Origin: Gluconobacter potus
Lineage (GTDB): Bacteria > Pseudomonadota > Alphaproteobacteria > Acetobacterales > Acetobacteraceae
Assembly (NCBI RefSeq): GCF_015244705.1
Contig: NZ_JABCQF010000001.1
Coordinates: forward strand, 496,001 to 560,000
Length of the DNA: 64,000 nucleotides
Direction: 5' to 3'
Shown: piece by piece, positions 32,468-50,140 of the stretch
Layout: every line of letters begins with the position of its first letter
How positions within the stretch are numbered: position 1 is the first letter of the stretch
Translations under genes and position numbers: made by a program
Notes under the pieces: model-generated
Told to the model about the DNA's origin: nothing
Database searches by the model: none
The model's input: only the letters and a program-made list of their open reading frames with translations

Positions 32468-33766
32468 TTAGTACAGCAGGAAGGGGTGGCGCTGCCGATT
32501 GAACTCTGCTTCGTCTGCTTTCCAGGTCTCCAGAATATCGGGAACTGGCATGCCCTGTGAAAGCTGTCGGCGGAGAGCGCTGCTGCCAGCCAGGATGTCG
32601 AAGGTTGAACCGGATTTTCTCCATATCGGGTTATCCGATATTTTCAGCACAGTCTGAAGCATCGTCACGCCCGTCAGCAGGGGATCGAAGGATTTCCGGT
32701 CGGTGATGGCAAGCTGGAGCCCGTGGCATAGCTGGTCTTTTGCGACTTCAAACCCGGGAGTGAACCAGTCTTCCCTGAAGAGGCAACCCGGCAGGCCTGC
32801 GTTGCTCAATTCTTCTACCCAGCGGGTTGCGTCGAGATGGGGCGCGCCGAGTGTCAGAAAGGGCGAGGCCGTGCCACGCCCGACCGAGAGGGTCGTGCCT
32901 TCGAACAGGCAGGTTCCCGGATAGGCGACGGCCGTTGTCACGTCAGGCATGTTCGGGCTTGGCGGAACCCAGACGAGATCGGTGTCGTCCTGATAAAGGT
33001 CACGGTGCCAGCCGGTCATGGAGATAATGCTCAAGCGGACGGGGCGTCCTGCCAGCTGGGGCACATACCGGCTGTTGAACAGGCGTGCCAGTTCGCCAAC
33101 GGTCATGCCGTGTCGCAGCGGGATCGGGACTCTCCCTACGAATGATGAAAATGCCGGATCAAGGGTGGGGCCGCTGGCGTGCAGGCCCGTGATGGGGTTG
33201 GGTCTGTCCAGCACCATGAACGCGATGCCGCAGCGTGCGCAGGCGACGAGGGCGTCGAACATGGACCAGATATAGGTGTAGAACCGTGCGCCGATATCCT
33301 GAATATCGAAGATGAGAAGATCGATGTCTGCCGATTTCAGGAGCGCATCCAGCTTCGGGCCGGAGAGGGTGTACATGTCGTAAACGGGGATGCCTGTGCG
33401 GGGGTCGATGCCTTTGGCCTCGGAATGGCCAGCCTGCGCCGATCCGCGGAAGCCGTGTTCAGGTCCGAAAATGGCTTTCAGGTTTACGCCCGGGGCGGCG
33501 TGCAACTGGTCTGCAATATGGCGCAGGTGGCGGTCCACGCTTGTGGGGTTGGCGATCAGGCCCAGTTTCCGGCCTTTGAGCGCCTGATAGCCATCGGCTT
33601 CGAGAGCGTCATAGCCGGTTCGGACTTTGACCGGGGAAGGGCATCCCGCGGGCATTCCTGAAGCGGTTGCCCAGGATGATACGGCGGTTCCTGCGCACAG
33701 ACCCATGAAGGTACGGCGGCCGAGGGAGGTTTTGCGGGCAGGGGTTGCGGAAGGACGGTGGGGCAT
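32468..33766 (-). CDS. NamZ/YbbC-type exo-beta-N-acetylmuramidase (DUF1343)
   Basis: Exported protein (432 aa) of the DUF1343 family. Characterised members (NamZ) release terminal N-acetylmuramic acid from peptidoglycan fragments. It carries a twin-arginine signal (SLGRRTFMGLCAG) and the family blocks LKGRKLGLIANPTSVD, AIFGPEHGFRGSAQAG, IDLLIFDIQDIGARFYTYIW, LDRPNPITG, WVPPSPNMP and YPGTCLFEGTTLSVGRG. It lies 24 bp downstream of the DacB-type gene on the same strand, so the pair should be co-transcribed. This places muramidase and DD-peptidase activity together at one end of the D-amino-acid locus. Confidence 0.88.
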   Translation of the reverse strand: MPHRPSATPARKTSLGRRTFMGLCAGTAVSSWATASGMPAGCPSPVKVRTGYDALEADGYQALKGRKLGLIANPTSVDRHLRHIADQLHAAPGVNLKAIFGPEHGFRGSAQAGHSEAKGIDPRTGIPVYDMYTLSGPKLDALLKSADIDLLIFDIQDIGARFYTYIWSMFDALVACARCGIAFMVLDRPNPITGLHASGPTLDPAFSSFVGRVPIPLRHGMTVGELARLFNSRYVPQLAGRPVRLSIISMTGWHRDLYQDDTDLVWVPPSPNMPDVTTAVAYPGTCLFEGTTLSVGRGTASPFLTLGAPHLDATRWVEELSNAGLPGCLFREDWFTPGFEVAKDQLCHGLQLAITDRKSFDPLLTGVTMLQTVLKISDNPIWRKSGSTFDILAGSSALRRQLSQGMPVPDILETWKADEAEFNRQRHPFLLY

Positions 33767-33790
33767 GTCGTGCGGGCTCCCGGGATTTAG

Positions 33791-35305: not shown

Positions 35306-35362
35306 GACGGCCCTGGCTGAGTGGAGAGTGTGACGTGTCCGTCGGGATGCTGAAAAGACAGA

Positions 35363-35393
35363 AGGCTGCCTGTGTCGGGGGAACAGGCAGCCT
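35363..35393 (-). terminator. intrinsic terminator between the TonB receptor and dacB
   Basis: AGGCTGCCTGT (35363-35373) pairs with ACAGGCAGCCT (35383-35393), an 11-bp perfect stem. On the minus strand it is followed by a T-rich TTCTGTCTTTT, downstream of the receptor stop. Confidence 0.7.
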
Positions 35394-35426
35394 CGTCGTG
35401 GGCAGGACAGGTGTGAAAGACTGCGT

Positions 35427-38315
35427 TCAGAACTCCATGCGGATGCCGCCGCGATAGGAGCGGCCCAGCAGGCTGCTATAGGTTTCGTCGGCCTCAAGTC
35501 CCCCTTCCGGCAGCAGGATCGGGGAGGTGTTCGCGAGGTTGGTGACAGTCAGGAAGAGCTGCATCTTGCCGATTTTTTCGACGGGCAGATTATAGGTCGC
35601 GTTCATGTCGAAGTAAAAAATGCCCGTGACATGGTCATTGTTGATCGTAGGATAGTTGGCGTTATAGGCCGGGCATGTTCCCGAGCACTGGATGTAGCTG
35701 TTGGAGTAATTTCCCGCGCTGATACCCCGGGCAATGGCCGTGAGGCTGTATTTTGACGTCCTGTACGTGGCCGAGAAACGGTAGATCCAGCGCGGTGGCC
35801 CGGATGCGATGTCTCCTGACGTATCGACTGTATAGCCCATGCCGGAATCAGAGATATATTTCAGGTAGTTCGTGGCCTGTCCATGGATCGTAAATGTCCC
35901 GTCGGCATCGCGCAGAAAGCGGCTGAGCGGGAAGCTGTATGAGGCGTCGATGTCGATGCCGCTGGTTTCGAGCTTGGCAAAGTTGAAGGGAGAGGCGCTG
36001 ATCAGAAGATCACGCGTGCCGGTCGGGTCAGCGCGTATGGCCGAGCAGAATGTGGTGTATCCCGAATAACATTCATCAATGATGGACTGCGGATAGAACT
36101 GTTCGATTGCGTTCTTGATCTTGGTATGGAACCAGTCGACCGAGATAGCCAGACCAGACACATATCGCGGCGTGATGACCGCACCAACGACGGTCGTATT
36201 CGCCGTCTCGGGACGCAGTTTCGTGTTGCCCGTCGTTGTGGCGAGAACGGTATCTGTCTGGCCCGTGACCGGATCGAGCACGGTTGTCGTCTGGGATGTC
36301 CCGGCATTGTAGAGTTCGTTGATGTTGGGCGCGCGGATGTCATGCGACTGGGTGGCACGGAACAGGACGTCTCTGATGGGCTGCCAGGTCCCACCGATTT
36401 TCCATGTCGTGACATAACCGGAGGTCGAGTAGTCCGTTCCGCGAACGGCGCCGTTGAAGGACAGGCCTTTTGCCAGAGGGACTGCGGTTTCGAGATAGGC
36501 CTCCTTGACGTTGTAGTGGCCAAATGTCGGCAGGTAATTACCGACAGACCAGCCTGACTGGTATTCCGTCGGAACGTATCCTGAGGAACGTTCGTCACGA
36601 TATTCGCCACCGACAGCGACGTTCACGTCTCCAGCCCATGTTGCAAACGGGATCATTGAGAGGTTCACGCCCGAGACGATTTCCTGAAACCGCTGGTTTC
36701 GCCATGGCGAACCAAGAACGTAATCAATGGCCGAGGAGGACATGACGCCCGTTCCCAGCCAGTCGATCGGGGAACAGCCATTCCCGGGGTCCGTCAGGGA
36801 TGAGCGGCAGACAATCTGTCCGGCCGAGTTGCGCACGGCATCAGTCGCGTTGGCGATCTTCGCCGTGTTCATGACGTTATAGATCTGCTCATGCGTATGG
36901 GTGACGCCATACTGGGCGTAGGCACTCCATGACGCGCGTTTGTTGAACATCTCGAAATTGCCTTCGCCACCGAACGTATAACGCTGGACGTTGCGGCGGT
37001 TGTCGGTCCGGCGGTAAGGCATGTCGAGCGCGGTCGTGCCGACCGTGACGGACGAGACGTCCTGCAGGGCGTCGGCGCCCAGAGCGTCCACGAGATAGGG
37101 GTTTGTTCCCTTCAGCGAGATCGAGCTGAGATACTGGGGGCCGGAGTTGTAAACGTATTCGCTATCGTTGTAGGCGCCTTCCGCATAGAGGGTCATCCAG
37201 GGGGCGACGTCGTAGCTCAGGCGTCCGAAGAGATTTTTGCGGTCGCTCTGGGGTTCCAGGCCGATGTCCTTGTTGTTGTTGGCCAGGTTCTGGTCGCCAC
37301 CGACGGAAACGCTGGATGTCGAGAGGGAGCCATAATTGTAATGGTTAATGCTTCCGCCAGGGCCAAAATAGATCCCGCGCAGGGAGTTGGTTACACCGCC
37401 CGTGGACGCGTTGATGATGCCGCCGGGCATGACGTTGTTGGTGCCGGCATCGCTGACACGGAGATAGTAAGGCTGACCATTTCCGGCGACATAGTCAGGA
37501 TTGTTGACAATACGGTCGCCGTTCACATTCCAGCTTCGGGAGACCTGGAAAATGCCGTCCTGATGGGCAATGTCGCCGCTGAGGAGGACATGTCCTTTTC
37601 CGTGGGCAAAGCCGAAGCCACCGGCGATGGCGGCATGTTCGTTCTCTCCGTCCCCATAATCCGAGATGCCGGAATCCGCCGTGACCTTCAGGCCCGTATA
37701 GGTCTTGTCGAGCACGAAGTTCGTGACACCCGCAACGGCATCGGAACCGTACTGCGCGGAAGCACCGCCCGTTACCACGTCCACGCGTTTGATCAGCTGC
37801 TGGGGGATCGTGTTGATGTCGACGATGCCGGTGATGGCAGAGGGCGTAATCCGTCGGCCATCCATCAGCACGAGCGAACGGACGGCGCCAAGATTGCGAA
37901 GGTTGAGCGCGTTGATGCCGGCTGTGCCATCGCTCAGGGAATATGCCGAGTTCTGGGGCGTCTGGCTGCCCGCGAACTGCGGCATCTGATTGATCAGGTC
38001 GGCAATGTTGTTGCTGGGCGCCTGATTCAGGATTTCCTGCTGGTTCAGAGAGCTGATGGGGGTCGGGGATTTGATATGGGAGTTTGCAATATGACTGCCC
38101 GTAACGGTGATGACTTCCCGGTTGGATTCTGTCTGCTTCTGTGTCTTTTTATGACTTGCGGCAGGTTTGGAAGGCTGCGCAGATGAATGCTTGGTATCGG
38201 CAGGCTTGGCCACTGTTGCTGCGGCGTAAGCCTGCTGCGGCATGAGGAATGTTGCGCCCGACGACAGGGCGGCAAAGGACAGGAAATAAGACTTTAGGGG
38301 CAGTCTGACCGTCAT
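35427..38315 (-). CDS. TonB-dependent outer-membrane receptor
   Basis: Outer-membrane gated channel (962 aa). It has a Sec signal peptide cleaved after QAYA (about residue 31), then a basic/polar linker. The TonB-box-like EVITVTGS is followed by a plug domain (SPTPISSLNQQEILNQAPSN through GGASAQYGSDAVAGVTNFVL) and a 22-strand-type barrel ending in an aromatic residue (GIRMEF). It is large, resembling receptors for peptides or oligosaccharides rather than simple siderophores. It is surrounded by murein and D-amino-acid enzymes, and a T-N11-A palindrome lies 105 bp upstream. Substrate inferred: cell-wall or D-amino-acid peptides. Confidence 0.92.
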   Translation of the reverse strand: MTVRLPLKSYFLSFAALSSGATFLMPQQAYAAATVAKPADTKHSSAQPSKPAASHKKTQKQTESNREVITVTGSHIANSHIKSPTPISSLNQQEILNQAPSNNIADLINQMPQFAGSQTPQNSAYSLSDGTAGINALNLRNLGAVRSLVLMDGRRITPSAITGIVDINTIPQQLIKRVDVVTGGASAQYGSDAVAGVTNFVLDKTYTGLKVTADSGISDYGDGENEHAAIAGGFGFAHGKGHVLLSGDIAHQDGIFQVSRSWNVNGDRIVNNPDYVAGNGQPYYLRVSDAGTNNVMPGGIINASTGGVTNSLRGIYFGPGGSINHYNYGSLSTSSVSVGGDQNLANNNKDIGLEPQSDRKNLFGRLSYDVAPWMTLYAEGAYNDSEYVYNSGPQYLSSISLKGTNPYLVDALGADALQDVSSVTVGTTALDMPYRRTDNRRNVQRYTFGGEGNFEMFNKRASWSAYAQYGVTHTHEQIYNVMNTAKIANATDAVRNSAGQIVCRSSLTDPGNGCSPIDWLGTGVMSSSAIDYVLGSPWRNQRFQEIVSGVNLSMIPFATWAGDVNVAVGGEYRDERSSGYVPTEYQSGWSVGNYLPTFGHYNVKEAYLETAVPLAKGLSFNGAVRGTDYSTSGYVTTWKIGGTWQPIRDVLFRATQSHDIRAPNINELYNAGTSQTTTVLDPVTGQTDTVLATTTGNTKLRPETANTTVVGAVITPRYVSGLAISVDWFHTKIKNAIEQFYPQSIIDECYSGYTTFCSAIRADPTGTRDLLISASPFNFAKLETSGIDIDASYSFPLSRFLRDADGTFTIHGQATNYLKYISDSGMGYTVDTSGDIASGPPRWIYRFSATYRTSKYSLTAIARGISAGNYSNSYIQCSGTCPAYNANYPTINNDHVTGIFYFDMNATYNLPVEKIGKMQLFLTVTNLANTSPILLPEGGLEADETYSSLLGRSYRGGIRMEF

Positions 38316-38419
38316 ACCCTGGTTCCCTCGATAAGCGCCGATGGGCGGTGATGTTGCGATATCGAACTAATGTTGCATATCTGTCATGCCGTCGTCGATT
38401 TTGAAACTGCGCGCGCCAT

Positions 38420-38434
38420 ATAACCTGAAGTTAT
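38420..38434. promoter_or_regulatory. LysR-type box 1: ATAACCTGAAGTTAT
   Basis: A 15-bp near-palindrome (ATAAC-N5-GTTAT) with the T-N11-A pattern of LysR-type binding sites, 105 bp upstream of the TonB receptor start. Matching sequences occur at 45570, 47411 and 48459. It is inferred to be bound by the LysR protein encoded at 47436-48326. Confidence 0.6.
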
Positions 38435-38474
38435 GTCTGCGTCGTTTCCTGGCGATTCAGGGATTGAAAAGAGA

Positions 38475-40547
38475 TCAGCGAGGCTGTTGAGCCTGAAGTT
38501 TTGTGTCAAAGAAATGCAGCGTCCACAGATAGGCGTTCAGCCAGTCCTGCGTGCGCAGGAAAGCGTGGCGTTCGCCGGGGAAGACATGATCCTCAAACGG
38601 AATATTCCGCTCCACGAGCATGCGCGCCAACAGGACGGATTGTTCGAATTCGACGTTGAAGTCATCATCCCCGTGGATCAGCAGGACCGGTGAGCGCCAG
38701 TGGGCGATGTCGGCGATTGGGGAGGAACGCCATTCGCTGTTCTTTTCCCGCTGCTTTTCTTCGGGGGACAGGCCGGAATGATCGGGTTCCGTCATGTCGT
38801 GGACGCCGTGGAAGTCCGCTCCCGCCACGAACAGGTCGCTGTTGCGGGCCAAGGCCAGGGCCGTAAGATAGCCACCCCAGCTTCCGCCCCAGATGCCGAT
38901 CCTGCCCGGAGCTACGTCGGAGCGGCTGCGCAGGAACAGTCCGGCTGCGTGGACGTCCTTGTATTCGCTGGCGCCAGCCCGACCGATGCCGGGAGCGGTC
39001 CGGAAGGCGAGGCCATAGCCGGTGCCGCTGCGATAATTGACGGCCAGCACCACATATCCGCGCGATGCCAGAAACTGGTTCATGGCATAGGCATTGGAAT
39101 AATAGCCCATCGGATTAAAGGCCGGGAGCATCTGCCGGTGCGGACCGCCATGCACGAAGACCAGCGCCGGATGCGGGCTGGCTGTTTCGGCGGGAGGCAG
39201 AAACAGTTGTCCGTGAATGTCGCGGCCATCATCGCTGCGGATATGCACGATCTGAGGGGCTGTGAATGTAAAGCCGTCCGGGACAGTGGCTGTGACGGGC
39301 AGGTACCGGGTATTGTTCTGGAGCACGACCGGGTGGGCAGGCAGGTCTTTACCCGTGGCCATCATGGCGAGGGCCGGCCCAGCCATTGTGAGGTCCATGA
39401 CCTGTTCGTTCGGGTCGCTGAGGGCAACGGGCTGGCCGTTATCGAGGGGCTGCGACCAGGCGCGCCAGTGATCCGGATCGCCGATATTGGCGGTGTAGAG
39501 CAGACGGGTTTCATCCGCCGACAGACGGTAGGACGCGATTTCGGCACCATCCGGCGTCAGGCAGCGTGGCGTTGTCGCAGGGGTAGCGACGGGCAGGACG
39601 CAGAGCCTGAGCCAGCCACTGCCTTCCCATGGAAAAAGAAGCTGTCCGTTGCGGGTCCATGTCAGGCCCATGCCTTCCGGGGCCCAGAAGCGGTTTCCGG
39701 GCCCTTCCGGTGCGGTCCAGAGCGTGTGTTCTGCGCCGGATGCGGTGTCATAAACCTGAACGGACCAAAAATGTCCCTTGTCGCGTTCGGCCGTCAGCAA
39801 TGGTTGATAGGCTCGGACGAAGGCGATGGAGCGACCGTCCGGCGAGAATGTCGCTTCCTGATCGTGTCCCAGTGCGGCGGGCAGGAACACGGGCGCGGCG
39901 CTGCTGTTTCTGGCGTCCCAGAGTGCGATCAGGCTGTGGGAGCCACGGTCGATTTCGAGTGCAAGGCTGCTGCTGTCCGGGGACCAGTGCAGGGCGGTGA
40001 TCTCGCCCGGTGTGGTCATGACGACATGTGGCGTCTGACCCGGTTGGCCGACCAGAAGCGCGCCGCCCCGCATAAAGGCCAGCAGGCGTCCGTCCGGGGA
40101 GAAGACCGGGCTGTGTCCTTCCCCGGCGGTGACGGTCCGGCCATTGGGCAGGATGACGCGCACGGTTTCCTTGCCCGGCACGGCTGCGTTGCCTGCGTTC
40201 GGGGCGTGGTCGTTGGGATATTCTGCGTCGCCGCCTTCGACGAAGGTCAGTGTTCGCCCGTCCGGGCTGAGGGCGAGGCCCCACAGATCGGTTCCGTCAT
40301 CCTGCATATAGGCGGTGACTTTGCGGGGGGCCGCGCCTCCGTCGGAAATCAGGATATTGCGGATGCCATCCCGACGTTCCACCCAGGCCAGACGCGCCGT
40401 TTTTGCGGCGCCTGTCAGGCCGTTGGCATAGGGCATGGCCAGCAGGGCGCCCAGTTGGGTTGTGTCCTGCGTGGAGGCTGCGTTTGCGCCTGAACAGCCG
40501 ATCGCGAGCAGTGCTGAGGCGGCGAGAAGGGACAGTCGGATGGTCAT
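38475..40547 (-). CDS. S9-family prolyl-oligopeptidase-like exported peptidase
   Basis: Probably a lipoprotein or periplasmic peptidase (690 aa). The signal peptide ends in a lipobox-like AIGC (Cys18), followed by a TolB/WD-like propeller (about 30-420). The C-terminal alpha/beta hydrolase has Ser556 in GGSWGG, Asp629 in HGDDDFNV and His661 in GERHAF. S9 peptidases of this kind cleave short peptides. Its ATG overlaps the stop of the upstream serine hydrolase (ATGA), making it the last gene of a four-gene coupled operon beginning with the D-amino acid dehydrogenase. Confidence 0.9.
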   Translation of the reverse strand: MTIRLSLLAASALLAIGCSGANAASTQDTTQLGALLAMPYANGLTGAAKTARLAWVERRDGIRNILISDGGAAPRKVTAYMQDDGTDLWGLALSPDGRTLTFVEGGDAEYPNDHAPNAGNAAVPGKETVRVILPNGRTVTAGEGHSPVFSPDGRLLAFMRGGALLVGQPGQTPHVVMTTPGEITALHWSPDSSSLALEIDRGSHSLIALWDARNSSAAPVFLPAALGHDQEATFSPDGRSIAFVRAYQPLLTAERDKGHFWSVQVYDTASGAEHTLWTAPEGPGNRFWAPEGMGLTWTRNGQLLFPWEGSGWLRLCVLPVATPATTPRCLTPDGAEIASYRLSADETRLLYTANIGDPDHWRAWSQPLDNGQPVALSDPNEQVMDLTMAGPALAMMATGKDLPAHPVVLQNNTRYLPVTATVPDGFTFTAPQIVHIRSDDGRDIHGQLFLPPAETASPHPALVFVHGGPHRQMLPAFNPMGYYSNAYAMNQFLASRGYVVLAVNYRSGTGYGLAFRTAPGIGRAGASEYKDVHAAGLFLRSRSDVAPGRIGIWGGSWGGYLTALALARNSDLFVAGADFHGVHDMTEPDHSGLSPEEKQREKNSEWRSSPIADIAHWRSPVLLIHGDDDFNVEFEQSVLLARMLVERNIPFEDHVFPGERHAFLRTQDWLNAYLWTLHFFDTKLQAQQPR

Positions 40548-41827
40548 GGGGCTGATGTCCCGGCTTCGGCGAGGGCGGTGAAGATTTCTTCCTCGACGCG
40601 GGTGAATGAGGAATAGGCGCCCGGCCGTTCCTGCCCGGCGTCAGAGAAGCCGTCTGCGGCAAACAGGAAGCCGTCGCCAGTTGCGGGGTCGTACCAGAAG
40701 CCTGAATGCAACGAATAGGCGTCTCCGAGATGGCCGGCCAGATCGCCGGAATAGCCTTTATAGGGCCGGGTTTCGCGGCCGGAAGAATCCCGTGCTCCAG
40801 TCAGGCGCGCCATGCTCAGGCCATAGCTGGCGATCGGGTAGGGGCAGTCGCCGTTCCTGCCGTCATACTGCCAGGTGGGGGTCTGCATCAGGTCGATGCT
40901 GCGTTGCGAAAGCAGTGTTCTGCCGTCCAGTGTGCCGTGGCCGAGCATGAAGCGGGCAAGACGGGTCAGCCCTTCCATGGAAATGCGCAGGCCACCCTGC
41001 GGGGAGAACAGCGTGCCGTTTGTGCCCGGCATGTAGCTGGCGAGGGCTGCGGCGTTCCAGCTCGGGGTCAGGGGCTGGGTGTCCGTCTCGGCTTCCCATC
41101 CTTTGGGCTGGTGGCTGTAGAGCGTGGCCAGACGGTCGGGATGGGCGAGGGCCATACGGTTATAGCCGCCGTCGATCCCGAGTGGATCCAGCACATGCGT
41201 CTGCTGGTAGTGGTCGAAGCGTTCGCCGCTGACACGTTCCATGATCGTGCCCACGAGGCCGTAGCAGAGATTGCAGTACTCGAACCATGTGCCCGGCGCG
41301 TGTCCGTCTCCATGCGCGAAGTGATAGCCGGGATCACTGGGTTTGCGGGTGGCGTCGAAGAACTCGCTGATCCTGTGCTCCGGCGGGAGCGTATAGCCGT
41401 CGGCGTCGCGGATGCTGGAGGTGTGGTTGAGCAGCATCCGCACGGTGATGGGTGTCTGCGGGAAATCCGGGTTCCGGAGCCGGAAGCCCAGATAGTCGGA
41501 GGCGTCGTGGTCGAGGTCAATTTTGCCCTGCTCGACCAGTTCCATCAGCCCGATGGTTGTGACGACTTTCGAGACTGAGGCGATGCGGAAAAGCGTCTGC
41601 GGACCGACGGGGACGGCTCCATCCGGGCTCTGCCGGGCAAATCCGCCGTAATAGCTGTAAGCGACGCGACCGTGCCGCAGACGGACTGCGGCGATGGCAG
41701 CCAAGGGGCGGACTTCGCCCTGCGTCAGGACGCGATCCAGCGCGTGGGTGGTCTCGGTGGGCGTCTGGGCGTGTGCGGCTGAAGACAGGACCGTGAGGGC
41801 GGCCAGTGTGAGGCCCCGGATGGTCAA
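40544..41827 (-). CDS. exported serine hydrolase, beta-lactamase/S12 family
   Basis: Periplasmic SxxK hydrolase (427 aa) of the class C beta-lactamase/D-aminopeptidase fold: SVSK (Ser84-Lys87), YCN (Tyr184-Asn186) and a Gly-rich third motif region near HSGFWYD. I assign the start to a TTG at 41827 because it overlaps the stop of the upstream gene (TTGA), has GGAGG seven bases upstream and gives a clean signal peptide ending AHA. The long frame upstream to 42445 merely runs through the acylase gene. S12 enzymes include D-stereospecific peptidases and esterases, which fits the dehydrogenase operon context. Confidence 0.88.
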   Translation of the reverse strand: MTIRGLTLAALTVLSSAAHAQTPTETTHALDRVLTQGEVRPLAAIAAVRLRHGRVAYSYYGGFARQSPDGAVPVGPQTLFRIASVSKVVTTIGLMELVEQGKIDLDHDASDYLGFRLRNPDFPQTPITVRMLLNHTSSIRDADGYTLPPEHRISEFFDATRKPSDPGYHFAHGDGHAPGTWFEYCNLCYGLVGTIMERVSGERFDHYQQTHVLDPLGIDGGYNRMALAHPDRLATLYSHQPKGWEAETDTQPLTPSWNAAALASYMPGTNGTLFSPQGGLRISMEGLTRLARFMLGHGTLDGRTLLSQRSIDLMQTPTWQYDGRNGDCPYPIASYGLSMARLTGARDSSGRETRPYKGYSGDLAGHLGDAYSLHSGFWYDPATGDGFLFAADGFSDAGQERPGAYSSFTRVEEEIFTALAEAGTSAP

Positions 41828-44211
41828 GGTTGAGCCTCCGGGCGGAGCGTTATGCGTCGGACGGCGGCTGCATCGACACTGCGGGTGCTGAATGACAGAG
41901 GCTGCATGGCGCCGCGCAGCCAGACGGGCAGAAAATCGGCGTAATGGGGTGATTTCGGATCCGCTGACTGACCGGGGAAGTTGAGATACAGCGAGCGGTC
42001 CCAGTTCCCGACATCGCACACCATCAGATAGCTGGCCCCGCCGGTGCTGGCATAGGCATTCACACCGCCTTTCTGGGGGCTGTACCAGCGGGCCATGACG
42101 GTATAGGGGTCTCCGCCGCTCTGGGCTGACGGGCCGCCGATCGTGGGGAAAGCTGCCGCAACAGCCGGGACGACTGCGAGCGGGTGACGCAGCGTGATGG
42201 TGTGGAGCGCGCCCCAGCGCCAGGCGGCGGGGAGAGGGCCGAGCCGTTCCCGCAGTTCCTGAACGGCCTCCCGGAACTGTTCGACGAGCATCCTGTTCCG
42301 CGCGCTCACCGGATCGGCGCCAAAGCGGGCATCGGGGGACTGGAACAGGGCGAGCTGAACGGTGGCGTTTACAGGGCCCGGAAGCAGGTCGTGCAGGGTG
42401 GGCGGTATGATGAGGGCGTGCAGCGCGCGTTCGAGACGGGTCCACCAGACTTCATATAGCGCGGCCGCCGCACTGCTGGCATCGACGCGGCCATTCCATG
42501 CCTTCAGCAGAGCAGCCTCTGCGGCGAGATCGGGCGGGACGTCGGGCAGGAGCCGGACCATCTGCAGGGCCAGAACGGATAATGTGTCGTGTTGCAGGGC
42601 CACGCTGTCCGCAAGGGTTGCACGCGGTGTTGCATCCAGCATCTGGGCTACGCGTTCGTGGCGGAAGCCGTCACGCCATTCGAAACTCACGCGCCGTTCC
42701 TCGACCGGATAGCCGCGGGGCAGGTTCATTTCGTTGGATGTTCCGAACCAGCCGCGTGCGGGATTGAAGCTGCTGGGCAGGGCTTCGAGCGGCTGAAGAC
42801 CCTGCCAGTCATATCGTCCGTCTCCCGGTGCAGGCATCAACCCGTCATGTCCCGGAGCGCGACGTGGCAGGCCACCGGCGGCCTGCCAGCCGATATTGCC
42901 GCTGGTATCGGCATAGGTGAAGTTGGTCGGGCTGGTATGGACGCGCAGGGCTTCGCGGAAGCTGGGCCAGTCATGCGCCAGATTGATGCCGATATTGGCC
43001 AGAAGCCCGTTCGCGCCGGGGGCGAGCCAGGTGGCGGAGACTGCCGTGGCGCGATTGCGGGTTGGATCACGTGAGACGACCGGGCCGTGGACCGAGTAGA
43101 ACAGGTTCACCACCTGCTCGGCTTCACCACGGACCGCGATCCGTGTCTCGACCTGCTTCATGCGTTTCCAGCCGCCCTGATGGGCGTAGCGCAGCGGATC
43201 GGCGGGGTCGGTGCGCAGGATGAACAGGTCTTCCTGATCGATATGGAAATTGGTCCGGCCGAAGGCGATCGTTGCGTTATGGCCCTGCATAACGCCGGGC
43301 ATGCCTGCGCCACCGCCGCCGATCACATCCAGTCCCGGGGCCGTCAGATGGATGACGTGACGCGGACCCGGCACGCCGAAGGACAGATGCGGATCATTGG
43401 CCAAGATCGGGCGGCCAGTGGCGGTGCGGGAGGGGGCGATGACCCATGAATTGCTGCCCTCGTTCCGCCGCCGCGTTCCGTCTTCGGCTGTTGCATGGAG
43501 GTCGTGTCGGGGCAGGGGGGCCTGAAGGACGCCAAAAAGCCCGAGGTCGGCTTCGCTGATGGCGGCGGTGTCCAGCCCTTCCGGGACATGCAAATCATGG
43601 ACGGGTTCCAGCGGCGTGATGAGCGCGTCATAGGCGAGCCCCCCGCGTGCTGCCAGTCGGGCCCGGCGGATTTCGGTCTGCGTGTTGCCTGTGACTTCGG
43701 CGCGGACGCGGATCAGGTCCAGCACGTCCCAGTGCAGCGGTGTGGTAGCGAAAATGCCGAATTCCGGCGGCAGGAGCGAAGGCGTGGCGGTAACTTCCGC
43801 GATGCGCGCATTGATCCCGGCGACATAGGCGCGTGCGCAGTCCTGCGTCAGCGAGGGGAAGGCTGCGAGTTCGCGTTCGGCGTCTCCGCGGAACAGCACC
43901 AGCCGGTTGGCCGTATCGGACGGGACGAAGGCCGGGCCAAAGACTTCTGCCAGTTGTCCCAGAGACCTGCGATGTCCGAAATCCAGTTCCCACAGCCTGT
44001 CCCGCGCGATCAGATAGCCATCGGCAAAGAAAGCATCGGGGATGCTCTGTGCGCGGACATGGGGGACGCCCCAGCAATCTTCCAGAACCTCGACCGGCTG
44101 GCCAAGACCGGGCAGGCCCTGAAGGGGAGCCGTGGCACGGGCGCGGCGTCCCGGCGCGGACAGGGTGGCGGCGACGCCGCCAAGAAGAACCGTGCGGCGG
44201 GTGGCCTGCAT
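41824..44211 (-). CDS. penicillin-acylase-family Ntn hydrolase
   Basis: Exported, autoprocessed amidase (795 aa, normal for family S45). It has a Tat-like signal (TRRTVLLGG). The alpha part includes GVPHVRAQSIPDAFFADGYL, followed by a spacer and the autocleavage site RNEGSNSWVI, where Ser253 becomes the N-terminal nucleophile of the beta chain. Further family blocks are ANDPHL, PGVMQGHN and FGRTNFHIDQEDLF. It hydrolyses amides such as N-acyl amino acids, acyl-homoserine lactones or beta-lactam side chains. It sits between the D-amino acid dehydrogenase (17 bp) and the serine hydrolase (TTGA overlap), so here it may deacylate D-amino-acid derivatives. Confidence 0.9.
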   Translation of the reverse strand: MQATRRTVLLGGVAATLSAPGRRARATAPLQGLPGLGQPVEVLEDCWGVPHVRAQSIPDAFFADGYLIARDRLWELDFGHRRSLGQLAEVFGPAFVPSDTANRLVLFRGDAERELAAFPSLTQDCARAYVAGINARIAEVTATPSLLPPEFGIFATTPLHWDVLDLIRVRAEVTGNTQTEIRRARLAARGGLAYDALITPLEPVHDLHVPEGLDTAAISEADLGLFGVLQAPLPRHDLHATAEDGTRRRNEGSNSWVIAPSRTATGRPILANDPHLSFGVPGPRHVIHLTAPGLDVIGGGGAGMPGVMQGHNATIAFGRTNFHIDQEDLFILRTDPADPLRYAHQGGWKRMKQVETRIAVRGEAEQVVNLFYSVHGPVVSRDPTRNRATAVSATWLAPGANGLLANIGINLAHDWPSFREALRVHTSPTNFTYADTSGNIGWQAAGGLPRRAPGHDGLMPAPGDGRYDWQGLQPLEALPSSFNPARGWFGTSNEMNLPRGYPVEERRVSFEWRDGFRHERVAQMLDATPRATLADSVALQHDTLSVLALQMVRLLPDVPPDLAAEAALLKAWNGRVDASSAAAALYEVWWTRLERALHALIIPPTLHDLLPGPVNATVQLALFQSPDARFGADPVSARNRMLVEQFREAVQELRERLGPLPAAWRWGALHTITLRHPLAVVPAVAAAFPTIGGPSAQSGGDPYTVMARWYSPQKGGVNAYASTGGASYLMVCDVGNWDRSLYLNFPGQSADPKSPHYADFLPVWLRGAMQPLSFSTRSVDAAAVRRITLRPEAQP

Positions 44212-44228
44212 AAGAACCTGTTCCTTTC

Positions 44229-45449
44229 TCAGCTGACGGCGCGGGTGTCGAACCCGGCCACGATCTCTTTCAGTCTCAGGCCCGAGCCGACCGAGAGTGT
44301 GAAGCCAAGGGCACCATGCCCCACATTGAGCAGAAGATTATCATACCGGGTGCGGGCGATGATCGGAACGCCGGTGGGGGTGGCGGGCCGCAGTCCGGCC
44401 CAGGGTGTATCGTCGCCCTGACCCAGCGCGCCGGGAAGCGTCTCCGCTACGAGAGTGCGCAGCTCTCCGAGGCGTTTGGGGTTCAGGTGGGTGTTTTCGG
44501 AACCGATATCGACCATCGCGGCGATCCGCAGGCGATCGCCCAGCCCGGCATAGACCACGCGGTTATCGTAATCCGTCACGCTGACCGAGGGCACGAGGCC
44601 GGGACGCGGACGCGTGGTCAGGCTGTAGCCTTTCAGTCCATAGAGCGGCAGGTTGAGCCCGAGAGGTCGCGCCAGTTTCCGGGAGCCGATCCCGGCTGCG
44701 AGAACGACGAGATCGGTTTCGAACGGCTTGCCATCCAGCTGGACTTCGCAGCGGTTTTTCGGGCCTGTCGTGAGCGTGGCGTCGCCCTGTATGAGACGGA
44801 AGTTCGGTGAAGCGGTGAGGGTTTCGCGCAGGGCCTGGCAGAACAGGAAGCAGTCCCCGACTTCGTCTTCGGGCGAGAAGATGCCGCCTGCGATCTGTTC
44901 CCGCAGGCCTGCGAATGCCGGTTCGACATCCCTGCATTCGGAAGGAGAGAGTGCGCGCTGACGTTCCGGGTCGCTGACGGATTTTGCGGCTTTGCGGAAG
45001 GTGGCGGCATTGCGGTACAGGACGAGCTTCCCTGGTCGGCGCCACAGGAAATCGCTCAGTCCCTCCTCGCGATATTTCTCAAGCTCGGCCTGTCCGCTGA
45101 GGGCGAGATCGAGCAGGACTGCGGCATTGCGGCGGTTTGTGTGCCGGTTGCAGGCGCACAGGAATGCCAGCAGCCAGCGCCACTGATGCGGATCGGCTTT
45201 CAGCCGCAGCGAGATCGGGGAGTTCGGGCGGAACAGCCAGCCCAAAGCCTCCTGCGCGATGCCAGCATCGGCCAGCGGGCTGACATAGCGATAACTGAGC
45301 TGGCCGCCATTCGCAAAGCTGGCTTCCCGCCCGACGTCGTCGCGGCGTTCGATCAGGGTGACGTCATGTCCGTCCCTGACAAGGGTGTAGGCGGAGGTCA
45401 GGCCGATAACGCCTCCGCCAATAATGGTGATGGTCCGTCTACCGGCCAT
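44229..45449 (-). CDS. dadA: D-amino acid dehydrogenase (DadA-like)
   Basis: FAD-dependent, membrane-associated oxidative deaminase of D-amino acids (406 aa). FAD motif IIGGGVIGLTSAYTL at the N-terminus, the diagnostic ASFANGGQLSYRYVSPLADA, and the C-terminal PWAGLRPATPTGVPIIARTR and NVGHGALGFTLSVGSG. It yields 2-oxo acids and ammonia while feeding electrons to quinone. It is the promoter-proximal gene of an operon with acylase, serine hydrolase and S9 peptidase, and box 2 (45570-45584) lies 121 bp upstream. It should consume the D-amino acids released by those hydrolases. Confidence 0.92.
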   Translation of the reverse strand: MAGRRTITIIGGGVIGLTSAYTLVRDGHDVTLIERRDDVGREASFANGGQLSYRYVSPLADAGIAQEALGWLFRPNSPISLRLKADPHQWRWLLAFLCACNRHTNRRNAAVLLDLALSGQAELEKYREEGLSDFLWRRPGKLVLYRNAATFRKAAKSVSDPERQRALSPSECRDVEPAFAGLREQIAGGIFSPEDEVGDCFLFCQALRETLTASPNFRLIQGDATLTTGPKNRCEVQLDGKPFETDLVVLAAGIGSRKLARPLGLNLPLYGLKGYSLTTRPRPGLVPSVSVTDYDNRVVYAGLGDRLRIAAMVDIGSENTHLNPKRLGELRTLVAETLPGALGQGDDTPWAGLRPATPTGVPIIARTRYDNLLLNVGHGALGFTLSVGSGLRLKEIVAGFDTRAVS

Positions 45450-45569
45450 AAGTGTCCCAAGCGTCCAGAGGCTGGGCGCAGGGAAAAACTGCGTTCTCCT
45501 GCGCCGTTATCAGGAACAAAACCTACATTTCCCAAACGGATCGGCCTAATGCAAAGAGACCCGCTTCCC

Positions 45570-45584
45570 ATAACCTGCGGTTAA
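45570..45584. promoter_or_regulatory. LysR-type box 2: ATAACCTGCGGTTAA
   Basis: The same T-N11-A near-palindrome as box 1 (11 of 15 positions identical), 121 bp upstream of the D-amino acid dehydrogenase operon, in the gap after the serine hydrolase at 45687-47300. Inferred LysR operator. Confidence 0.55.
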
Positions 45585-45686
45585 CACATGGTGTCTCTGC
45601 GAACACGACATGCGGGGCCGCAGAAAGGCTTTTAGCCCATTTCGGGGAGACAAATTTCCATCCTGTCCGATGGCCTTCAGAATGGA

Positions 45687-47300
45687 TCAGGGAGTTTGGG
45701 TTCCTTCAGCTACAGAAGTACTGACCTTCTTCGGGTTCAGATCCTGCGCGTCAAAGCTGAAATCGGAGCCGATCACCTGCATTTTGATGCCCGTGACCTG
45801 ACCCGAGACATTACGTTCGAACTGTACATAAGAGTCGTCTTCGGCATCCTGTCCCCGGTCATCCCAGCGGACAACAAACAGATCATGCGGCAGGGCGGAG
45901 AGCGTTCCGGTCAGGCCATCGGCGTGGCTGAAAGACATCCGCAGGTCTGTTCCCCGCCGGCTGATCGTGATCGGGCCGCGCCAGTCATCGCGATAGGTCC
46001 CGACATAATCCTGTTGTGCATCGTGTGAGAGCGTGATGAAGGGGCGTGTGGGGGAACCCGGGCCCGTTTCGGCGGCTTTTTTCGCGTTTGCGGCCTGTCT
46101 GGCGGTTTTTTCGTGCAGGAAATGCGTAACCCAGTCCGCACTTTTTCCGGTTGCGACATAGGAACTGAGTGTTGTTGCGATGGCGTATGTCGCGGCATGG
46201 TCATCGTGGTTGGTCAGAATGACAATGCCTGAGCGGCGTTCGGGCAGGAAGGTCACATAGCTGACCATGCCGTCGATGGTGCCGGTATGCCAGACACGCT
46301 TCAGGCCAAAGAAATCTTCCATGAACCAGCCGTACCCATAAGCGCGGAAATGCGTTTTTGTGGCGTCCGCCGTATCGGGCAGAGGCAGCAGTCCGTGCGG
46401 ACCCCAGAGCGCATCGCGGCTGGCCTGGCTGAAGATCTGTCGGCCGTTCGGGGCGCGGCCGCCATTGAGATAGGTCTGGACCCAGCGCGCCATGCCATCG
46501 GCGCTGCACCAGATACTACCGGCGGGTGCGACCGCTGGCAGGCGGAGGGCGCTTTTGCCAGGCAGCACACTGCTTTCGCCTTCACCGGTGGCCACGTTCG
46601 TCTGGCCTTTGACCGGCGGTGTGCTCTGGCAGGCTGGCAGATCCGCGGCATTGATCAGGCGCTTCTGCACCACGTCTTCCCAGCTCTGCCCTGTTATGCG
46701 TTCGACCAGCGCGCCTGCGACGACATACAGAAGATTGTTATAGGCGTATTCGCTGCGAAACGGGGCTGTGAACGGCATGAACGGCAGCCCGGCCAGGACT
46801 TCCGGGCGGGTGAACGTGCTGTGTGAAAACAGCATCAGGTCCCCGGCACCCTGTCCCATGCCGCTGTGATGCGTCAGCAGATCCGAGACGCGGAAGTCCC
46901 GCGTGATGGACGGGTCGGCCACGCGGAACTCCGGCATGTGGTCGATGACGCGATCGTTCCAGCCCAGTTTGCCCTGATCGACCAGTTGCGCCAGTGCTGT
47001 GGTAGTGAATTCCTTGGTGTTGGAGCCGATTGCAAACAGCGTGCGGCCGTCAACCGGGGCGCTCGTCTTGTCCTGCGCGCGCCGCCCATAGTCACGGCTG
47101 AACACGACCTCGCCGTCCTGCACTACCGCGACCGCAATTCCCGGCACGTCGAAGGCCGAGCGTGCATGTTCCACTGTCGTGCCGATTTCCTGCTCGGTCA
47201 GTCCTGACGGAAGCGTCGCGGCTTGGGCGACGTATGATGTGGAAAGAAGGAGTGCTGCCGGGAGGGCGAGCATAAGTGACTGTCTGGGAAACTGGATCAT
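45687..47300 (-). CDS. exported serine hydrolase, class C beta-lactamase-like with C-terminal beta domain
   Basis: Periplasmic SxxK hydrolase (537 aa). It has a Sec signal peptide ending AQA (about residue 27), SNTK (Ser93-Lys96), YNN (Tyr187-Asn189) and HTG in WHTGTIDG. A C-terminal lipocalin-like extension (about 430-520, DYVGTYRDDWRGPITI) is typical of DUF3471-type members. Relatives include D-aminopeptidases and D-peptidases as well as esterases. It is monocistronic and box 4 (47411-47425) lies 111 bp upstream. It is the second such hydrolase in the locus. Confidence 0.9.
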   Translation of the reverse strand: MIQFPRQSLMLALPAALLLSTSYVAQAATLPSGLTEQEIGTTVEHARSAFDVPGIAVAVVQDGEVVFSRDYGRRAQDKTSAPVDGRTLFAIGSNTKEFTTTALAQLVDQGKLGWNDRVIDHMPEFRVADPSITRDFRVSDLLTHHSGMGQGAGDLMLFSHSTFTRPEVLAGLPFMPFTAPFRSEYAYNNLLYVVAGALVERITGQSWEDVVQKRLINAADLPACQSTPPVKGQTNVATGEGESSVLPGKSALRLPAVAPAGSIWCSADGMARWVQTYLNGGRAPNGRQIFSQASRDALWGPHGLLPLPDTADATKTHFRAYGYGWFMEDFFGLKRVWHTGTIDGMVSYVTFLPERRSGIVILTNHDDHAATYAIATTLSSYVATGKSADWVTHFLHEKTARQAANAKKAAETGPGSPTRPFITLSHDAQQDYVGTYRDDWRGPITISRRGTDLRMSFSHADGLTGTLSALPHDLFVVRWDDRGQDAEDDSYVQFERNVSGQVTGIKMQVIGSDFSFDAQDLNPKKVSTSVAEGTQTP

Positions 47301-47410
47301 GGACGGCTCTGAATACGAATTTCCGGCTCCGGATTATGGGAGGACCGTAAGGAAGACTGAGTCAGAGCACGAAACGTTCCGCCTGTCCTGTCTCAAGATG
47401 CAGGCTGTCC

Positions 47411-47425
47411 TTAACCTTGGATTAA
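47411..47425. promoter_or_regulatory. LysR-type box 4: TTAACCTTGGATTAA
   Basis: A more diverged T-N11-A near-palindrome sharing TAACCT-N4/5-TTA with the other boxes, 111 bp upstream of the serine hydrolase gene and 11 bp beyond the end of lysR. It is the weakest of the four. Confidence 0.4.
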
Positions 47426-47435
47426 GTCCCGGCCA

Positions 47436-48326
47436 TTATTTTTTCAGGCTGAGCAGGTCCACGTCCAGTTCGCTGCGCAGCAGGGTAAGGATGCTCTGGG
47501 AGATATGAGACAAGGCATGATCGGCGCGGAACAGGACCGTACAGGTCACGCTCAGGGGGGGAGAAAGAGGGCGTGGGCGAGGCAGGCCCGGATGATGCAG
47601 GGCTGTGACAGCATCCACGATGGCACACCCGCCACCGAGACGTACGAGTTCGGCTGCCATGAAATGGGTCCGCACCCGCACATGCGCCTTGATGGGAATG
47701 CGGGCTTCTTCCATTACCATATCAAGCATGCGGGCCGTAGGATCGTTCTCACTGAGCCCGATATAGCGTTCAGGGTTGATTTCGGTGACACTGACCGGCC
47801 CTTCTCCTTCTTCCGCATCAATCATCATCAGCGGAATATCTGCGATATGCAGGGCCGTCAGTCCGTCATATGTGTAGTCGCCGAACACAATTCCGAGGTC
47901 GAGATCATGATTCATGATGCGTGACACGATTTCGGGTCCGTGCATGGCATCGATCGTCAGTTCCATGCCTGGATGATCGGCCCGATAGCGTTGCACGACA
48001 CGGGGTACGAGGCTCAGCCCCAGACTCGGTACGCATCCGATACTGATCGAATGTCCGTCGCGGGCGTAACGCAGATTGTCGGTCAGGCGTTTGAGGTCGG
48101 ACAGTTTCTCGAAGATCGCGTTGACATGGGGCAGCATGATGCGGGCCTCGCGGGTCGGCACCAGTCGTCCTCCCGCCCGTTCAAACAGCGCAAATCCCAG
48201 GGACTGCTCGGCATAGCGCAGAACCTTGCTTGCCGCCGGCTGCGAGACATGAAGCAGCTCGGCAGCGCGCCGGAGTGAACCCGCCGTCATAATCGCATAA
48301 AAAACTTCGATCTGGCGCAGGCGCAT
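47436..48326 (-). CDS. LysR-family transcriptional regulator
   Basis: LysR-type regulator (296 aa, normal). N-terminal winged HTH MRLRQIEVFYAIMTAGSLRR with AAELLHVSQPAASKVLRYAE (about 3-60), then a substrate-binding domain starting SISIGCVPSLGLSLVPRVV. It is divergent from the D-amino-acid-oxidase-like gene and next to the serine hydrolase. A palindrome of the shared type lies 133 bp upstream (48459-48473), consistent with autoregulation. The likely inducer is a D-amino acid or murein-derived peptide. The repeated boxes suggest it controls the whole 35-50 kb locus. Confidence 0.92.
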   Translation of the reverse strand: MRLRQIEVFYAIMTAGSLRRAAELLHVSQPAASKVLRYAEQSLGFALFERAGGRLVPTREARIMLPHVNAIFEKLSDLKRLTDNLRYARDGHSISIGCVPSLGLSLVPRVVQRYRADHPGMELTIDAMHGPEIVSRIMNHDLDLGIVFGDYTYDGLTALHIADIPLMMIDAEEGEGPVSVTEINPERYIGLSENDPTARMLDMVMEEARIPIKAHVRVRTHFMAAELVRLGGGCAIVDAVTALHHPGLPRPRPLSPPLSVTCTVLFRADHALSHISQSILTLLRSELDVDLLSLKK

Positions 48327-48681
48327 TGGAGTTCCTTGCTTTGAAAGATGGGTTTCTGAACTGTTCGCAGGTGAAGTGGGGGAATGAAATCCTTTTTGTC
48401 ACCCTTTTGCAAAAGGTGATGCAAATAGCGAAGCCAGATCTGCTACCCGCAGAGCCTCATAACCTGAAGCTATGTTTCACGAGCTTTTTGAGAATTCCAT
48501 TCCGGCTCGGATTTTCCGATGGTTGATATCCGTTCGGAATGAAACTTGTGGCTTCCCATGTTGCGACAGAATGAGGGGTTATCCTGATCGTATCAGGTCC
48601 ACACAAGTGAAGTCATGCGGTTCCAGCCGCCCCCGCGTCTGTCTGCGGATCACTCTTTTTCCAAGCCGGAAGATTTTTACA
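48327..48681. other. divergent lysR/oxidase regulatory region
   Basis: 355 bp between divergent genes, holding box 3 at 48459-48473. The plus-strand frame is open from 48472 but has no family resemblance before 48682, so it is treated as leader. No other gene was seen. Confidence 0.5.
48459..48473. promoter_or_regulatory. LysR-type box 3: ATAACCTGAAGCTAT
   Basis: Differs from box 1 by a single base. It lies between lysR (133 bp from its start) and the oxidase-like gene (209 bp upstream), the classic position for a LysR recognition site in a divergent pair. Confidence 0.6.
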
Positions 48682-49854
48682 ATGCCTCTTCTTTCCCGTC
48701 GGCGTGCCATGACAAGGGGAGCATCCCTTTTAGGCCTCTCCAGTCTTTCCGGATGCGCGGGCGAAACCCTTCTTCAGCCTGATCTGGATGCGGATGTCCG
48801 TTCCCTGCCTGTCATCCGGGCGCGGACTGACAGAATTGACCGGATTACGGTCTGTCTGCGCCCTTTCCGGGCGGCGGGTCCCCGCCTGGATGTCGAGCAG
48901 GTGGAGCGTAAGACGGTTGTTCACAACTATGGACATGGGGGAAGTGGCTGGTCGCTGTCCTGGGGAAGCGCAAAGCTGGCTGTAGAACGGGCGTTGCCGG
49001 TCAGTTCCCGGAATATCGGTGTCATTGGATGTGGCGCGATTGGCCTGACAACGGCCATTGTCGCCCAGCAGGCCGGGGCGCAGGTTACGATCTATGCAGA
49101 GGCTCTTCCACCATTCGTCCGGTCTGCACGGGCGTCGGGAAGCTGGACACCATCTTCCCGTATCGCCCGTAAAGACGCCGTGACGCCGGAGTTTGCCACA
49201 CGATGGGAGAGCATGGCCCGGTATTCGTTTTCCTGTTACCAGAATCTTCAGGGACTGCCCGGCCATCCCGTGGAATGGGATACGTTCTATGGCCTGCATT
49301 CCCGTGAACCGTCGGCTCCTCATACCGATCCCATCGGGTTCGCCAGCCTGGACGACCGTATTCAGGATATTGAACCTCAGGGGAATCTGATCCGGATAAA
49401 CAACAGTCGGCTCCCGTACTCGGAAGTCCACAAGAAACCCAATCTGATTTTCAACGTCACCGGCTATGCGGATTATCTGCTGCGACAGTTTCTGGAGCGG
49501 GGCGGCAGGATCAAAATCCTGACCCTCCATCATCCCTCGGACCTGACGGCTCTGCCGGAGCCGGTTTTTATCAACTGCACCGGCTATGGCGCACGGGCTC
49601 TTTGGAGCGACAATACGATTGTTCCCATACGTGGGCAGATTGCATGGCTGATTCCCCAGCCCGAGGCGCTGTGCAGCATGAGTTTCGGGAATGTGTATGT
49701 CGTTTCACGAAGAGACGGCATTGTTATTCAATGGATGGGTACTGATATGGGGTTTGGCTATGACAATACAGATGAAAAGCCTGACCTGACAGAAGCCAGG
49801 CGCGGTGTTTCGATAATCAACGGATTATACAGAAACATGGGATATAATATTTAA
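48682..49854 (+). CDS. exported D-amino-acid-oxidase-like flavoprotein, permuted type
   Basis: FAD-dependent oxidoreductase (390 aa) with a combined Tat and lipobox-like leader (SRRRAM ... LSGCAG). The DAO substrate and FAD block VVHNYGHGGSGWSLSWGSAK, normally near the C-terminus of D-amino acid oxidases, comes at residues 79-98, before the Rossmann motif GVIGCGAIGLTTAIVAQQAG. The protein belongs to a recognised permuted group of exported oxidases. The remainder has DAO-like blocks (FINCTGYGARALW, VPIRGQIAWL). The start at 48682 is chosen because the earlier frame is unstructured. It is divergent from LysR; the likely role is oxidation of D-amino acids outside the cytoplasm. Confidence 0.8.
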   Translation: MPLLSRRRAMTRGASLLGLSSLSGCAGETLLQPDLDADVRSLPVIRARTDRIDRITVCLRPFRAAGPRLDVEQVERKTVVHNYGHGGSGWSLSWGSAKLAVERALPVSSRNIGVIGCGAIGLTTAIVAQQAGAQVTIYAEALPPFVRSARASGSWTPSSRIARKDAVTPEFATRWESMARYSFSCYQNLQGLPGHPVEWDTFYGLHSREPSAPHTDPIGFASLDDRIQDIEPQGNLIRINNSRLPYSEVHKKPNLIFNVTGYADYLLRQFLERGGRIKILTLHHPSDLTALPEPVFINCTGYGARALWSDNTIVPIRGQIAWLIPQPEALCSMSFGNVYVVSRRDGIVIQWMGTDMGFGYDNTDEKPDLTEARRGVSIINGLYRNMGYNI

Positions 49855-50140
49855 TCTGCTTTCTATCATATCCACGTCAGGAGAGGGGCCTGTCCTGACT
49901 GGAGGGAGGCAAAGGCCAACATTCGTCAATGGTTCTGCAGTTTTCCATCCGCCAGGAAGGATAAGAACAGCTTACGGTAGGATAGAAAAAAACATACATT
50001 CCGTTATCGTTCTGAAGTTCGTTAGATTTTCCCTCAAGGTGATCGGCTGAGTGCGGGAGGTCACCGGGAACATTCAGAACTTCCGGATGCCTGGATTGAG
50101 CGACAGGCACGCGGGAGACGAGCGGGAAGAATATCAGCCG
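49855..50140. other. promoter region of the second TonB receptor
   Basis: 286 bp without a gene. A weak hairpin GTCAGGA ... TCCTGAC at 49876-49899 may end the oxidase transcript. AT-rich sequence at 49975-50040 is the likely promoter of the receptor/nickel/urease operon. I could not find a convincing NikR-type dyad or a riboswitch fold. Confidence 0.4.

Follow-up and report, generated by a model that had tools for sequence, protein, structure and literature searches.

A candidate LysR-controlled regulon for scavenging murein-derived D-amino-acid peptides in Gluconobacter potus

What use does an acetic acid bacterium make of a gene cluster that sets an exo-N-acetylmuramidase, a D,D-peptidase, a TonB-dependent receptor, several other hydrolases, a D-amino acid dehydrogenase and a LysR-family regulator side by side? 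The question is raised by positions 32468–49854 of a 64,000-nucleotide stretch of Gluconobacter potus DNA (the window), which comes from a genome of 3.42 Mb in 67 contigs. We consider it probable that this locus serves to scavenge murein-derived, D-amino-acid-containing peptides and forms a regulon under LysR control. The reading is based on gene content, on conserved linkage to genes for murein and D-glutamate (D-Glu), and on operator-like dyads shared between promoters; from these we infer every substrate, the place and direction of each step, and the binding of the LysR protein to the dyads. The ten genes are:

32468–33766, minus strand: NamZ-family exo-N-acetylmuramidase (PF07075/PF20732, NamZ_N/NamZ_C), the single match in its genome
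33791–35305, minus strand: S13 D,D-peptidase, PBP4/DacB family (PF02113, Peptidase_S13); reading frame listed from 35497, ATG 35305 the likelier start
35427–38315, minus strand: TonB-dependent receptor, 962 aa (PF07715/PF00593, plug and barrel)
38475–40547, minus strand: S9 peptidase with a signal-like N-terminus (PF00326); ATGA overlap with the S12 gene
40544–41827, minus strand: first S12 D-peptidase-like hydrolase, 427 aa (PF00144); reading frame listed to 42445, TTG start at 41827
41824–44211, minus strand: Ntn-hydrolase acylase of the S45 (penicillin amidase) family (PF01804, 616 bits against a cut-off of 21.3)
44229–45449, minus strand: DadA-like flavoprotein dehydrogenase (PF01266, DAO fold; NF001933, 370 bits)
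45687–47300, minus strand: S12 hydrolase with DUF3471 and a signal-like N-terminus (PF00144, PF11954)
47436–48326, minus strand: LysR-family regulator (PF00126, PF03466)
48682–49854, plus strand: D-amino-acid-oxidase-like protein (DAO fold); reading frame listed from 48472, probable start 48682

In a Pfam scan all ten open reading frames fell in the families that the initial annotation had named for them. The nine genes from LysR down to NamZ are all on the minus strand, and the oxidase-like gene is divergent. The gene overlaps described earlier are real, with the start of the first S12 gene corrected to TTG 41827: this codon lies on the acylase stop (TTGA), and the S9 and S12 genes share four bases (ATGA). 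Revised starts were picked by eye from signal-like N-termini, and the S13 gene probably begins at ATG 35305 and the DAO-fold gene at 48682. The NamZ protein scores 255.5 bits for NamZ_N and 163.2 for NamZ_C (curated cut-offs 26.9 and 25), and the S13 protein lies over the PBP4 equivalog cut-off TIGR00666 (201.4 against 107.8 bits). We take the lipobox-like N-terminus of the latter to mark a probable lipoprotein, and the N-termini of NamZ and the acylase to carry a Tat-like (twin-arginine-like) motif.

With these parts, the receptor would carry muropeptides or their peptides across the outer membrane, and in the periplasm the exported NamZ, S13, S9, S45 and two S12 enzymes would cleave both sugar and peptide bonds. 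The DadA-like dehydrogenase would oxidise the freed D-amino acids into the respiratory chain, and N-acetylmuramic acid would be processed by murQ–anmK elsewhere in the genome.

Is the set kept together in relatives? A scan for the acylase in the GTDB genome collection gave 97 related stretches, the best 80 of which were used (the nearest records may be missing): 37 from acetic acid bacteria, 36 from sphingomonads and seven distant loci outside both groups (L114, L116–L121). The sphingomonad count includes L092, titled Proteobacteria, and L108, titled Arthrobacter sp. TPD3018, a locus that nests among Sphingomonas in the tree and whose title is probably wrong. Within 10-kb flanks (several contigs being shorter), the 37 acetic-acid-bacteria loci hold a DadA-like gene in 35 cases, S9 in 30, LysR in 28, S12–DUF3471 in 26, the first S12 in 25, a class A beta-lactamase in 18, a third S12 type in 14, S13 in six, NamZ in four and MurQ in one. 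The receptor has a strong match in 13 of them, of which nine belong to the window's family and four to a different type, like that of L063, and two more have weak matches only; its best matches in other carriers show 48–94% identity at more than 850 bits. None of the partner families was found in the seven distant loci. As controls, 15 loci of more distant same-family acylases gave three weak DadA matches and no other partner, and 20 selected stretches of 20 kb from two carrier genomes gave a distant TonB receptor in three and no other partner. The clustering is more than chance, and co-occurrence in relatives, named beforehand as one point on which the proposal could fail, is conserved in the 37 acetic-acid-bacteria and 36 sphingomonad loci.

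An intergenic scan found a 13-base dyad common to the DadA-like and receptor promoters, and weaker dyads lie at two further sites:

38421–38433, minus strand: LysR-type dyad TAACTTCAGGTTA, receptor promoter
45571–45583, minus strand: LysR-type dyad TAACCGCAGGTTA, DadA-like promoter
47412–47424, minus strand: weaker dyad TAATCCAAGGTTA, upstream of the S12–DUF3471 gene, two mismatches to the query pattern
48460–48472, minus strand: weaker dyad TAGCTTCAGGTTA, between LysR and the divergent DAO-fold gene, one mismatch to the query pattern

Operators of LysR-type regulators follow a T-N11-A dyad rule, and T-N11-A dyads stand here upstream of the target genes, as in a LysR-type regulon; they fit a LysR operator that the regulator of the locus would bind. 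The form TAAC-N5-GTTA occurs at 60 sites in the 37 acetic-acid-bacteria loci, against about 4.9 expected from base composition, and 58 of these lie at most 400 nt upstream of locus genes; one of the remaining two is 6 bases from a further receptor gene. It precedes every testable DadA-like gene (34 of 34), 8 of 22 S12–DUF3471 genes, 5 of 22 LysR genes and, among the strong receptors, all nine that belong to the window's family and none of the four of the other type. The acylase itself has an upstream dyad in L067 and L073, the sole two loci without a DadA-like gene. The S9, S12, S13 and NamZ genes lack such a dyad, which is what one would expect of genes further down an operon. In ten stretches taken at random from an acetic acid bacterium there was one site (about 1.0 expected), and in the 15 distant loci none (about 0.7). 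A palindrome scan of the receptor–acylase gap gave no match in the five sphingomonad loci covered. A stricter form occurs at three places genome-wide, two of them in this locus, and is no commoner than its reversed control (seven places), so the argument rests on position and not on number. The third place (C16:12461, L153), considered as a regulon site, lies between frames named by eye as AraC-like and methyltransferase-like, and we took it as chance. Sites that related promoters have in common cannot be counted as separate events. Across 34 loci and the window (rows chosen by exact match) the middle five bases of the dyad vary; since every testable DadA-like gene has a dyad while these bases vary, we favour a function. 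The proposed co-regulation of the gene set is thus supported by the shared LysR-type dyad.

What ties the locus to murein is its neighbourhood in relatives. NamZ was found in 19 of 27 acetic-acid-bacteria genomes searched, and in six genomes of Acetobacter and Gluconacetobacter (G120, G121, G156, G157, G160 and G162) no more than 2.5 kb separate it from MurQ. A MurQ–NamZ–sodium symporter group adjoins LysR–receptor–S12–S12–DadA-like in A. indonesiensis (L148); symporter–MurQ–isomerase-like–GH20 adjoins LysR, S12, S12, DadA-like, acylase and S9 in A. cibinongensis (L146); and NamZ adjoins LysR in A. farinalis (L143). NamZ and MurQ lie about 8 kb from the receptor on one contig in A. senegalensis (G156), and in Gluconacetobacter aggeris (L145, 209–7275) NamZ and MurQ have a second, paralogous receptor, a DadA-like gene and two S12 genes as neighbours. 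In the G. potus genome a MurQ gene (258 bits) is followed by an AnmK gene, 0.45 Mb from the locus. No inner-membrane importer was found for Gluconobacter, and we name none for the pathway because the G. potus genome has no match to the AmpG family; in Brytella (L072) a solute-binding protein, an amidase and a permease come after the first S12 gene.

The sphingomonad version of the locus extends this to D-Glu. The window's receptor family is present in 25 of the 36 loci, and these 25 hold a D-aminoacylase-like gene in 22, a dicarboxylate-type symporter in 21, DgcA in 19, the third S12 type in 19 (two weak), S13 in 18, DgcN in 15, LysR in 14, an AmpG-family gene in eight, MurQ in four and an M19 dipeptidase in three; DgcN is found in two of the 11 loci lacking the receptor. 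In L088, which has the same receptor family, DgcN scores 503 bits (cut-off 480) and DgcA 450 (cut-off 400); MurQ passes NF003915 (336 against 168) and falls below TIGR00274 (257 against 302), an AmpG-family permease reaches 293 bits, under its cut-off of 350, and M19 and D-aminoacylase-like proteins are also encoded. With extended flanks, L151 shows MurQ, LysR, DgcN, DgcA, a D-aminoacylase-like protein, a symporter, S13, S12, an AmpG-family protein and the receptor together. Whole-genome searches found DgcN in all 27 sphingomonad genomes (26 over the cut-off) and in none of 11 from acetic acid bacteria. The best receptor match lies at most 20 kb from DgcN in 22 of the 27 (the exceptions being G132, G133, G139, G142 and G149), and in six of these 22 (G126, G128, G130, G131, G135 and G137) the receptor, an S9 relative and DgcN cluster away from the acylase. 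NamZ lies elsewhere in the genome, away from the locus, in all three sphingomonad genomes searched for it. Because DadA-like and DgcN–DgcA genes alternate behind the same front end, D-amino acids, D-Glu included, are suggested as the product. The initial annotation had proposed import or trimming of murein or D-amino-acid peptides followed by D-amino acid oxidation, and the NamZ, MurQ, AmpG-family, DgcN/DgcA, M19 and D-aminoacylase-like neighbours point the same way. More tentatively, and at somewhat under an even chance, the receptor family may bring in muropeptides or murein peptides in a TonB-dependent manner, and the linked S45 clade may be a periplasmic amidase for the D-amino-acid bonds of murein peptides, with two unrelated back ends (DadA-like in acetic acid bacteria, DgcN–DgcA in sphingomonads) fitted to this front end.

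The acylase is a member of S45: it passes the PF01804 cut-off, and Gly-Ser-Asn is conserved at the chain junction. G252, S253 and N254 are invariant in 24 aligned rows, S253 aligning with the first residue of solved beta chains. Its nearest solved protein is the D-succinylase of Cupriavidus (7eby, 7ea4), the match to 7eby being full-length at 535 bits, as compared to 205 bits for penicillin G acylase. In a quick tree, which carried a long-branch warning elsewhere, the acylases of acetic acid bacteria and sphingomonads form one clade (Shimodaira–Hasegawa-like approximate likelihood ratio test 99), apart from all distant copies; the closest row is that of G. vitians, at 95% identity. Some acylase match is present in 98 of 120 Acetobacteraceae genomes, at 60% identity or more in only five besides the G. 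potus genome. Several sphingomonads (L101–L105, L107 and L108) have two acylase copies, in separate subclades, that flank the receptor. A siderophore or quorum-signal acylase was rejected (the PvdQ match is partial and weak, 55 bits against a cut-off of 950), as was a lasso-peptide isopeptidase for the S9 gene (67 bits against 400). According to the available text of a review, D-succinylase is a D-selective amide hydrolase, not strictly so, which recognises the L-isomer too (PMC7431475).

The dehydrogenase gene of the locus is not the housekeeping DadA. At 370 bits it misses the cut-off of the DadA subfamily NF001933 (383), and we therefore call it DadA-like; two orthologues just pass (386 and 387). 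The canonical DadA of the G. potus genome scores 643 bits and is located elsewhere, so that the locus gene is a distinct second paralogue, and all 25 acetic-acid-bacteria genomes searched have both a canonical DadA over the cut-off elsewhere and a locus-type paralogue.

Several results weigh against the murein-scavenging interpretation. Besides the window, its receptor family is present in only 9 of the 37 acetic-acid-bacteria loci, NamZ in four and MurQ in one (several contigs being short), and NamZ is in none of the 36 sphingomonad loci. All 27 MurQ matches fall below the TIGR00274 cut-off (302). The AmpG family has no match in the G. potus genome or in 10 of 12 acetic acid bacteria, and weak matches in two. 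The dyad has no site in the 36 sphingomonad loci (about 1.4 expected). D-succinylase scores higher with an unlinked Massilia acylase (851 bits), which falls outside the window's clade in the quick tree, than with the acylase of the window (535) or a sphingomonad one (445); D-selectivity is for this reason only a hint for the window acylase and may not carry over. Finally, 6 of 25 genomes (G042, G122, G123, G153, G154 and G161) carry the acylase with no NamZ and no receptor of the window's family, the 16 best receptor candidates per genome having been scored; because of these six, the exact substrate is less supported than the D-amino-acid part of the proposal.

The same six genomes, the closeness of the acylase to D-succinylase and the D-aminoacylase-like partner in 22 of the 25 receptor-bearing sphingomonad loci would also suit a general scavenging of N-acyl-D-amino acids or D-peptides, for example non-ribosomal ones, with murein as one source or none; we regard this as unlikely, since genes for MurQ, NamZ, AmpG-family, DgcN/DgcA and D,D-peptidase proteins adjoin the set time and again. 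Markedly less probable is that the cell salvages the products of its own wall turnover and takes no food from outside: the same enzymes could serve recycling, and the genome does have murQ and anmK, but it gave no match to AmpG, through which recycling usually runs, and the outer-membrane receptor and the DadA-like gene share a promoter dyad, which argues for import from outside. Least probable is breakdown of, or protection from, beta-lactams by enzymes of penicillin-acylase type and of beta-lactamase fold, with the LysR protein acting in the manner of AmpR, a reading favoured by the class A family in 18 of 37 acetic-acid-bacteria loci and by the class C fold that the S12 proteins share, but one in which those proteins reach only 42 and 75 bits where class C membership asks for 415, the acylase resembles D-succinylase more than it does penicillin G acylases, the class A enzyme is in none of the ten reading frames of the locus and none of the 36 sphingomonad loci, and the receptor, DadA-like, DgcN/DgcA, MurQ and NamZ have no evident role.

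The murein-scavenging interpretation has partial parallels among known systems. YbbC proteins, which we take to be of the NamZ type, figure in one of them. According to the available text, the muropeptide operon of Tannerella forsythia (ampG–ybbC with murTKQ; PMC5388701) resembles the locus in that a YbbC gene and MurQ serve the use of external muropeptides; it differs in that it depends on AmpG and is transcribed together with murTKQ. The paper nowhere uses the word TonB, and its available parts do not mention the acylase, DadA and D-peptidase set. As far as the accessible parts of the reports go, the DgcN–DgcA route (PMC12363236, PMC10845958) shares the D-Glu end point, and its gene families are represented in the sphingomonad loci; the difference is that the 11 acetic-acid-bacteria genomes have no DgcN and their loci have a DadA-like gene instead. 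The N-acetylglucosamine receptor clusters of Caulobacter, discussed with peptidoglycan recycling (PMC13046382), likewise place a TonB receptor beside amino-sugar catabolism genes, but take up sugar through a phosphotransferase system, and the accessible text mentions no D-peptide enzymes. AmpG-based muropeptide recycling differs in its permease, for which the window's genome has no match. The available text of a further paper describes unusual 1,3 cross-links in Gluconobacter murein (PMC10864386), which may or may not bear on the function of the locus. Full-text searches, mostly without subscription papers, found no description of this gene set among the records listed; the author of the initial annotation likewise knew of no described system of this composition.

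The divergent D-amino-acid-oxidase-like protein deserves separate mention, its membership in the pathway being uncertain. It appears to be circularly permuted: against 7ct4, query residues 124–173 align with 322–371, 171–214 with 15–59 and 361–405 with 208–254, such that the segment normally found at the C-terminus (it contains HNYGHGG) comes before the nucleotide-binding one, an order kept in 10 rows. A literature search for a permuted oxidase of this kind found no description. A structure prediction from the ten-row alignment had a mean pLDDT (predicted local distance difference test) of 42.5, too low for use. The gene is near the locus in 11 of the 37 acetic-acid-bacteria loci. A second TonB receptor (50051–52576, plus strand) lies beside it, upstream of NicO and urease genes, and in G. 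wancherniae (L066) the oxidase and a similar receptor stand beside S12–DUF3471. Other side observations are a class A beta-lactamase gene in or near L063 (15802–16746) and in or near 17 other acetic-acid-bacteria loci, which is not among the ten reading frames of the locus, and an open reading frame of 1739 aa outside the locus (9129–14348, minus strand).

The word muropeptide is absent from the available text of a 2024 review of TonB-dependent uptake (PMC11658791). The operator motif described here can be used for finding further regulon members, and the conserved linkage offers a possible biological role for relatives of D-succinylase. To our knowledge, apart from AmpG and the uptake of sugars, little is known of how Gram-negative bacteria use the walls of other cells as food; a receptor-plus-hydrolase set that is conserved and apparently co-regulated in acetic acid bacteria, and conserved also in sphingomonads, is a testable candidate for such wall feeding.

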